From Melioribacteraceae bacterium (lineage in GTDB: Bacteria > Bacteroidota > Ignavibacteria > Ignavibacteriales > Melioribacteraceae): DNA of 64,000 nucleotides. Under the pieces are notes generated by a model. It did no database searches. It saw nothing but the letters and a program-made list of their open reading frames with translations, and was not told where the DNA came from. The translations under genes were made by a program, and so were the position numbers. Location of the stretch: the NCBI GenBank assembly GCA_016927595.1, contig JAFGMI010000024.1, positions 1 through 64,000 on the forward strand, read 5' to 3'. This document shows, one piece after another, positions 55,940 through 58,978 of this stretch (positions are counted from its first letter, which is position 1; each line of letters begins with the position of its first letter).

Positions 55940-56617
55940 TTGGGAAACCTCGACGGTTTAATATCTCTTCTGATTGCCTGTGTTGAGCTTGTTTTCGTCT
56001 TAAACTTACTGGTATTCGCAGAAAAAAATTACGTTAATAAACTTATCATTTTTCTTGTAATTTTATTAGCTGCATATCAGGCAACTGAATTTATGATCTG
56101 CTATTTCGGAATGAATGACACATTTATTGTATATTTCGCGTTTTTAATAATAACACTGATCCCGACATTTGGCGGATTAATAGCTTTATACCTGTTCCAG
56201 GGGAATCGTAAATTGCATCAGGTGCTTTTTATCCCCGCTCTCTTTTTCATTTTTTATTACGCGGCTGTAATCGGCAGTTTCGATATAACCGGATGCACTT
56301 TTCTGTACGCTGTTTATGATTATCCCTTGGGAAATTTGTACAGTCTTTTTCATTTCGCAATAATATATTTGTCAATGCTGGTTTATTTTTTTGTATACAT
56401 ACGTACTGAAAATCAATTCGTGAAAAAACTTAATTTGATACTATTAACGGGCTATTTAATTACATTCATACCTGCAAATACGGTTTTTTTGCTTTCAGAT
56501 TTTATGTGGAGCATTAAAGAAAGTATACAAGGCAAAATTGCAGTTGTGCTCGCACTTTCTTTCAGCTATTATGCATTGAAAAATAAAAATCTACCCGGAG
56601 AGGAGAAAAAAATATAA
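55940..56617 (+). CDS. Multi-pass membrane protein, unknown function
   Basis: 225 residues from TTG 55940 with GGAG upstream. About seven hydrophobic segments fill nearly the whole length, resembling the 7TM input regions of some signalling proteins, but no output domain follows. No family was recognised. It overlaps by a few bases the next small frame, which seems to use a non-standard start. Confidence 0.7.
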   Translation: MGNLDGLISLLIACVELVFVLNLLVFAEKNYVNKLIIFLVILLAAYQATEFMICYFGMNDTFIVYFAFLIITLIPTFGGLIALYLFQGNRKLHQVLFIPALFFIFYYAAVIGSFDITGCTFLYAVYDYPLGNLYSLFHFAIIYLSMLVYFFVYIRTENQFVKKLNLILLTGYLITFIPANTVFLLSDFMWSIKESIQGKIAVVLALSFSYYALKNKNLPGEEKKI

Positions 56618-56949
56618 ACGAAGTTATTTTAAACATCTATCTGATAATAGATAACGAAAAGGTAACAGGATTTCGGGCAAAAGCATATGAAAGTGATGAT
56701 GGGGATTCTCAGAAAATAAAATTTCTAAAATCCCGTGTATTGATTGATTTTGAAAATGCTTATAGATTCGATGCCCCGGTCAATCCGAAGGGCGAGTTTA
56801 TGAAATATCGTAATTTCGCAAAACTTGAGGAACGGGGGATGCATTTTCAACTCTTTGAGGAAATATTTGTTAAATTTAACGTTCCTGAGAATCCGCTTAT
56901 TTGTGTCACTCCCGTTGTTGACGGGAAAATAATACACTCGGAAAGCTGA
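56614..56949 (+). CDS. Small unknown protein, apparent ATA start
   Basis: The frame is open from 56587 to the stop at 56949 and reads as coding throughout (NEVILNIYLIIDNEKVTGF, then VNPKGEFMKYRNFAKLEERGMHF). The only standard start is a TTG at 56740, which would delete about 40 coding-looking residues and has no ribosome-binding site. GGAGAGGAG at 56597-56605 is ideally spaced from ATA 56614, giving about 111 residues. No family was recognised. Cotranscription with the membrane gene before it is likely. Confidence 0.55.
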   Translation: MNEVILNIYLIIDNEKVTGFRAKAYESDDGDSQKIKFLKSRVLIDFENAYRFDAPVNPKGEFMKYRNFAKLEERGMHFQLFEEIFVKFNVPENPLICVTPVVDGKIIHSES

Positions 56950-56977: not shown

Positions 56978-58978
56978 ATGAGTAAAAACATCCAGCAATT
57001 ATCAATTGATACGATACGACTCCTTGCTGTAGACGGAGTACAGAAAGCTAATTCGGGTCACCCCGGAATGCCGATGGGCTGTGCCCCTATTGCTTATTTA
57101 TTATATGCAAAACTTATGAAGCATAATCCCGGAAATCCGAAGTGGATTAACCGCGACAGATTCATTTTATCAGCCGGTCATGGAAGTATGCTCCTGTACA
57201 GTGTTCTTCATCTTACAGGCTACAAAGTATCTATGGAAGATCTTCAGAGTTTCAGACAATGGGAGAGTATTACACCCGGACATCCGGAGTATGGATTAAC
57301 AGAAGGTGTTGAAACAACAACAGGACCATTGGGGCAGGGTTTCACCAATGCTGTCGGAATGGCATTGGCGCAGAAATTTATGGCATCAAAGTTTAATAAG
57401 AACGATAAAAATATTATCGATCATTATATATATGGAATATGCAGCGACGGTGATCTGATGGAAGGCGTTTCCCATGAAGCCGCATCGTTTGCGGGACACA
57501 ATAAACTGGGAAGCCTGATATTTTTCTACGATAACAATAAAATAACTATTGACGGAAGTCTGGCACTATCGATGTCTGAGGATGTAGGTAAAAGATTTGA
57601 GGCGTACGGCTGGCATGTCCAGTATGTAGATGATGTGAATGATCTCGTACAGCTTGAAAAAGCTGCTATTAATGCACAAAATGAAAAAGACAGACCATCG
57701 TTAATAGTTACAAATACGGTAATCGGTTACGGGAGCCCGAATAAAAAAGGTACTGCAGGCTCGCATGGTTCGCCTCTGGGTGAGGAAGAGGTTAAGCTTA
57801 CAAAACAGTTCTTCGGATTTCCGGAAGATAAAACTTTCTATATACCGGATGAAGTGCAGAAACATTTTAATGAATTAAAAAATACTCTTCCTTTGTATGA
57901 AGAAGAATGGAAAAAATTATATGCCGGGTATCGTAGTAATTATCCCGAAGATACTAAACTGCTTGATGAAGTTATGAACGGTAACTTTGGTAATGATTGG
58001 TTAAACAGTCTGCCCGTGTTCGAAAATTATGGTGAGGGTGTCCCGACACGATCAGCTTCAGGCAATGTCCTTACTGCAATAGCTGAAAAGCTGCCCACTT
58101 TGCTTGGAGGTTCGGCAGATTTAACACCGTCTAATAATACCCAAGTAAAATCATACGTGAATTTTTCTCCGGATGATTATTCCGGCAGGTACGTCAGGTA
58201 CGGTATCCGGGAACATGCTATGGCGAGTATGATGAATGGTATATGTATGTACGGAGGCATAATCCCTTATGGTGGTACATTTCTTGTTTTTTCGGATTAT
58301 CTGCGTCCGGCAATAAGACTTGCTGCTCTGTCCCATATTCGTCCGATTTATGTATTCACTCATGATAGTATCGGATTGGGTGAAGACGGACCTACGCATC
58401 AACCGGTTGAGCATTTTGCTGCCCTGCGCGCGATACCGGGACTGGTAGTTATAAGACCGGCAGATGCAAATGAAACAGCACAAGCCTGGAAAGTAGCCAT
58501 TACTCATCACGGCGGTCCGGTAGCAATATTGTTAACGCGTCAGAAGATTCCCGTGATCGACAGAACAGTGTATTCTGGCGCAGAAAACCTGGAGAAAGGG
58601 GCTTATATACTTAAGGATTGTGAGGGAAAACCCGATATAATTTTAATGGGTAGTGGATCAGAGGTTTATTTACTTCTGCAGGCTTCTGAAAAACTGGAAG
58701 CGGATTCGATTAAAACCAGAGTAGTAAGTTTCCCCAGCTGGGAATTGTTCGAATCTCAAAGTGATGATTACAGGGAAAGCGTGCTACCGGCGGATGTTAC
58801 AGCACGATTGAGCGTGGAAGCAGGTGTTAAACTCGGATGGGAAAGATATACGGGACTTAAAGGCGATTCAATAAGTATTGATAAATATGGAGCGTCGGCA
58901 CCTTTCAAAATCCTTTTCGATAAATACGGTTTTGGAGTTGATAATATAGTTGCCAGGGCAAAGAAGCTTGTTAAATAA
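56978..58978 (+). CDS. tkt: Transketolase
   Basis: 666 residues, full length. The TPP-binding part is CSDGDLMEGVSHEAASFAGH and FFYDNNKITIDG. The central domain has YVRYGIREHAMASMMNGICMYGG and SIGLGEDGPTHQPVEHFAALRAIPGL; the C-terminal domain begins around residue 530. It moves two-carbon units in the pentose phosphate pathway. Preceded by AAGGGAAA; a terminator hairpin follows. Confidence 0.97.
   Translation: MSKNIQQLSIDTIRLLAVDGVQKANSGHPGMPMGCAPIAYLLYAKLMKHNPGNPKWINRDRFILSAGHGSMLLYSVLHLTGYKVSMEDLQSFRQWESITPGHPEYGLTEGVETTTGPLGQGFTNAVGMALAQKFMASKFNKNDKNIIDHYIYGICSDGDLMEGVSHEAASFAGHNKLGSLIFFYDNNKITIDGSLALSMSEDVGKRFEAYGWHVQYVDDVNDLVQLEKAAINAQNEKDRPSLIVTNTVIGYGSPNKKGTAGSHGSPLGEEEVKLTKQFFGFPEDKTFYIPDEVQKHFNELKNTLPLYEEEWKKLYAGYRSNYPEDTKLLDEVMNGNFGNDWLNSLPVFENYGEGVPTRSASGNVLTAIAEKLPTLLGGSADLTPSNNTQVKSYVNFSPDDYSGRYVRYGIREHAMASMMNGICMYGGIIPYGGTFLVFSDYLRPAIRLAALSHIRPIYVFTHDSIGLGEDGPTHQPVEHFAALRAIPGLVVIRPADANETAQAWKVAITHHGGPVAILLTRQKIPVIDRTVYSGAENLEKGAYILKDCEGKPDIILMGSGSEVYLLLQASEKLEADSIKTRVVSFPSWELFESQSDDYRESVLPADVTARLSVEAGVKLGWERYTGLKGDSISIDKYGASAPFKILFDKYGFGVDNIVARAKKLVK

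Follow-up and report, generated by a model that had tools for sequence, protein, structure and literature searches.

Starting a gene at ATA is uncommon, but a few bacterial genes are known to do so. In Staphylococcus aureus, according to the accessible text of one study, AUA starts occur at infC, ccpN and citZ and an AUU start at cvfC1, as seen by ribosome profiling and, for ccpN, citZ and cvfC1, by reporter assays (PMC13009471). Strong extended Shine-Dalgarno (SD) sequences accompany infC, cvfC1 and ccpN, in poor medium the tested near-cognate starts work about 10% as well as AUG, ccpN reaches up to 30% of AUG in rich medium, and the near-cognate start of ccpN is conserved from S. aureus to Bacillus subtilis (PMC13009471). 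Further cases, again from the accessible parts of the sources, are the AUU/AUC start of infC with its feedback by IF3 and the GTC start of Streptomyces sigR (PMC5472188), as well as rpoS of Escherichia coli O104:H4, in which a single mutation, acquired during laboratory culture, replaced ATG with ATA (PMC12864459). Compensation by the SD sequence at GUG and UUG starts is described in the accessible portion of the work of Belinky et al. (PMC5622118). A search of the literature on start codons in Melioribacter, judged by titles and the openings of abstracts, returned nothing related.

The locus described here lies in the window, a 64,000-nucleotide stretch of DNA from a Melioribacteraceae bacterium whose genome (G000) comprises 3.85 Mb in 59 contigs. 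On the forward strand, positions 56614..56949 hold an open frame of 111 residues with homologues and no family name, which runs from ATA (56614..56616) to a TGA stop at 56947-56949, as read from the sequence. The preceding in-frame stop and ATA 56614 are separated by nine codons (KSTRRGEKN), among which there is no ATG, GTG or TTG, and the earliest standard start of the frame is a TTG at residue 43 (56740..56742), from which a protein of 69 residues would be made. Upstream, also on the forward strand, an open frame with a TTG start (55940..56617) encodes a hydrophobic protein of 225 residues; it ends in ATA TAA at 56617 and overlaps the small gene by 4 bases, and the extended SD sequence of the small gene, GGAGAGGAG (56597..56605, forward strand), sits within its last codons. 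An ATGA overlap would have become ATAA by one G-to-A transition, with the stop retained. The next gene downstream on the same strand is an ATG-initiated frame of 666 residues (56978..58978), which we take from its sequence, and not from a family search, to be a transketolase. We consider AUA 56614 to be the probable start codon of the small protein, with slow initiation aided by a very strong SD sequence.

Within the taxonomic family, 62 of the 79 genomes carried the small gene, as did 45 of 58 relatives and 75 of 391 genomes sampled evenly across the class. Its nearest named relatives belong to metagenome-assembled genomes labelled Melioribacteraceae, Ignavibacteriae and Chlorobiota, which by themselves put the genome in Ignavibacteria and probably in Melioribacteraceae. 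The initial annotation had proposed a small conserved-looking gene whose coding-like sequence extends ahead of its only standard start; the breadth of the homologues in the family bears out the gene, and the conservation of residues 1-42 among them bears out the extension. Five residues (E3, N7, D31, K34 and L38), all of which precede residue 43, are invariant in an alignment of 94 rows, which, like the 94-row tree, omits L097 and L098 as both are truncated ahead of the stop. Structure prediction gave a confident model (pLDDT 91.7, pTM 0.82) in which residues 3-27 form two strands. Pairs among G000 and two genomes of the same genus, G001 and G002, gave pN values of 0.13-0.21 against pS values of 0.75-0.94 (saturated), and this held for codons 1-42 as well as for the remainder; the pairs that include G000 were slightly above the G001-G002 pair, and the G000 branch was 0.36 against 0.23-0.26 for its neighbours in the 94-row tree and not longer in a smaller tree. 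By these comparisons, the small protein is under constraint similar to that of its relatives. No credible match was found for it in Pfam or NCBIfam, the 94 homologues gave only scattered weak matches in Pfam, a Foldseek search with its model gave zero matches at E <= 0.001, and VIA-align found no Z >= 5 among 998 chains, a set to which the search is confined.

Homologous loci were compared for the position of their starts. Ninety-eight were fetched, the window's own included, and 96 were anchored on a conserved E...N motif, leaving out L007, frameshifted near its start, and L038, cut by a contig end. Aligned codon 1 or 2 is a standard start in 89 of the 96 rows (56 ATG, 27 TTG and 6 GTG), and MNE is the commonest start among family members. 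In three rows (L004, L039 and L003) an ATG precedes codon 1 by 2 to 4 codons, while the sole standard start of L002, from G001, is a TTG seven codons upstream. The three remaining rows lack a standard start: the window's own (L001, ATA), L005 from G007, with an ATC two codons ahead of codon 1, and L096 (G406:C244), where CTG occupies aligned codon 1 and its surroundings contain neither ATG nor GTG nor TTG. Eighty named loci were also taken, of which 3 were unanchored and 57 repeated earlier rows; the 20 new ones have ATG (19 loci) or TTG (1) at the same column. As a rough control, ATG is listed in 27 of 27 scored transketolase rows and some standard start in 57 of 57 scored rows of the upstream gene, one of which (L092) contains an internal stop, over a span of 22 codons, against a narrower one of 12 for the small gene. 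From these counts alone, the three rows of 96 that lack a standard start would not stand out as significant.

Among the 96 rows, the SD sequence of the small gene gives the strongest pairing. A near-perfect one had been noted 8 bases before ATA 56614, and it was recovered as GGAGAGGAG, 8 nt ahead of the codon. The genome that contains the window yielded no 16S gene, and pairing was scored with the 16S tail of a relative (G154) in which CCTCC is intact. The best 10-mer pairing at GGAGAGGAG was -13.2 kcal/mol, a value reached by 11 of the 127,982 overlapping 10-mers that the two strands of the window contain and by 0.05% of 4,000 random 19-base stretches treated as upstream regions. SD sequences are in general enriched at the starts of this window, since pairing of -7 kcal/mol or stronger was found at 36% of 33 plus-strand ORF starts versus 7% of random places (p about 1e-5, 4,000 random places). 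When the 40 bases before codon 1 were ranked across the 96 rows, with no start chosen, this genome came first (-13.2), G001 second (-12.6) and G007 eighth (-9.9), and L096 was 29th. The 56 ATG rows averaged -3.2, and SD sequences were stronger in TTG rows than in ATG rows (p 0.003).

No standard start is present at codons -3 to +2 in four rows (L001, L002, L005 and L096, at ranks 1, 2, 8 and 29), whose mean SD strength was matched by 0.0115% of four-row sets drawn at random; that of this genome and G007 alone was matched by 0.17% of random pairs. Relatedness of the rows is not accounted for in any of these statistics; G000 and G001 may have inherited one SD sequence from a common ancestor, and the number of independent cases may then fall to two. 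Putative starts are AUU or AUC in G001 and AUC in G007, but AT-rich DNA is full of AUH codons, and the presence of an ATT or ATC close to the SD sequence in these genomes carries little weight by itself. At the window's locus, the standard start is absent from the column at which homologues begin and the first-ranked SD sequence lies at 8 nt, a combination of the ccpN type.

A sequencing or consensus error that hides a true ATG is unlikely; it would require only one changed base, and ATG AAC GAA would restore both the commonest MNE start and a classic ATGA stop/start overlap. However, an aligned ATA also occurs in the separately assembled genomes G002 and G028, which makes an error in G000 alone less likely, the SD sequence is much stronger than is usual for the 56 ATG rows, and two relatives likewise have no standard start near codon 1. 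The error that the initial annotation had raised as an alternative is therefore weakened by the aligned ATA codons and keeps a small probability. Both G002 and G028 have an ATG 2 or 4 codons before this ATA, which there reads as an internal Ile codon and not as a start; ATA as the apparent start is confined to this genome. In the G028 locus (L007, G028:C83) and in L115, aligned codon 1 is ATA and an ATG lies four codons upstream; the small gene there appears frameshifted shortly after its start, or else carries an assembly indel. L001-L005 cluster with modest support (87/89) in the 94-row tree, and the forks among them lack resolution in the smaller tree that includes L007, which enters it only from the point where its match begins. 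The transketolase tree places G000, G001 and G002 in one clade (100/98), with G002 as the sister of G000 (87/86), whereas G028 falls among four rows that start with ATG and away from G000.

If the base is real, the transition from ATG to ATA, which keeps the upstream stop, could also be a recent mutation that removed the start and left the gene silent or almost so, and for E. coli a figure of up to 1% of ATG is given for ATA (Hecht et al., cited by the accessible text of PMC12864459). Such a loss is rather improbable: the frame is intact and under constraint similar to that of relatives, the SD sequence has been kept and is the strongest of the 96, the change from ATG to ATA in rpoS costs no more than 5-fold (PMC12864459, accessible text), and AUA starts in S. 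aureus yield about 10-30% of AUG (PMC13009471, accessible text). The constraint seen in pN argues against an old loss of function and not against a very recent one. The initial annotation had left open a low-rate or regulated start or one lost by mutation, and published AUA starts suggest the low rate. Translation from TTG 56740, the earliest standard start in the frame, is very improbable, and a start at residue 43 was rejected on the basis of homologue starts, upstream conservation and the model. Homologues that begin at residue 43 had been named beforehand as what would refute the ATA start, yet none of the 96 anchored rows needs a start there and 89 have a standard one at codon 1 or 2; the residues ahead of it are conserved, and the model folds them into two strands and a helix. 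A -1 frameshift at an A7 run, which would fuse the 225-residue protein to the small one, is equally remote. The run is preceded by an SD-like element and the phase is right for -1, but the upstream stop lies at -4 here, +7 in G001 and +45 in G007, three different phases, most rows have a standard start of their own, and G002 carries the small gene without the upstream homologue. A conserved frameshift fusion was rejected because the phase is not conserved and G002 lacks the upstream gene.

The upstream gene was matched by a homologue in 56 of the 96 rows, with its stop between -30 and +120 bases from codon 1 in 43 of them. Its 225-residue product has no credible match in Pfam or NCBIfam, and it may form a functional pair with the small protein. 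Weak starts showed no significant association with an adjacent upstream gene (p 0.09, odds ratio 2.2). In G002 (L104, 2995-3336), the small gene has an ATG two codons before the aligned ATA. A homologue of the upstream gene was not found in the G002 genome, and the small gene there is preceded by a different leader.

Under the preferred reading, initiation at AUA 56614, GGAGAGGAG at its 8-nt spacing would hold 30S subunits, or ribosomes that are ending the overlapping 225-residue gene, close to the near-cognate codon, which initiator tRNA would decode at a reduced rate. Ribosomes finishing the upstream gene may also couple into the small gene, and the outcome would be a low dose of the 111-residue protein. 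By analogy with infC-type starts, initiation at AUA 56614 may be sensitive to IF3. The infC gene of the same genome (L183, bases 1477-1479; G000:C23) has only an ATC at what is presumably its expected N-terminus, where ATC GCA AAG AAA follows GAGGTAA, like the usual near-cognate start of infC. With ATC alone at that position, AUH initiation probably occurs in this genome.

The small gene resembles the S. aureus set in its proposed near-cognate start and strong extended SD sequence, and cvfC1 likewise encodes a small protein; unlike that set, as the accessible text presents it, ATA is the apparent start in one species and is known here from sequence alone (PMC13009471). With infC and sigR it would share a near-cognate start in a conserved gene, and infC of G000 appears to use ATC, whereas control by IF3 was shown for infC and the small gene fits by codon class only (PMC5472188, accessible text). 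As in rpoS, ATA in place of ATG would lower the amount of protein without abolishing it; an SD change goes unmentioned in the accessible text on rpoS, in contrast to the exceptional SD sequence at the small gene (PMC12864459). The association of weaker start codons with stronger SD sequences within the family agrees with Belinky et al., whose accessible text covers AUG, GUG and UUG, and compensation would here extend to AUH (PMC5622118).

For genome annotation, the small gene is one that callers restricted to ATG, GTG and TTG would miss or cut at residue 43, and this one family offers a graded series of start-codon weakness (ATG, TTG, AUH) to set against SD strength. It can be hypothesized that standard starts were lost, in company with strong SD sequences, across several related species. 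As a less likely and more far-reaching proposal, the small gene of this Melioribacteraceae lineage may have abandoned standard starts, with a low, IF3-sensitive rate kept through different AUH codons (AUA in G000, AUU or AUC in G001, AUC in G007), each paired with an exceptional SD sequence. If so, a gene with no part in translation would be controlled much as infC is, and the family would form a natural series in which lost starts are compensated by the SD sequence; G002, after loss of the upstream gene, would have gone back to an ATG just before the old ATA.
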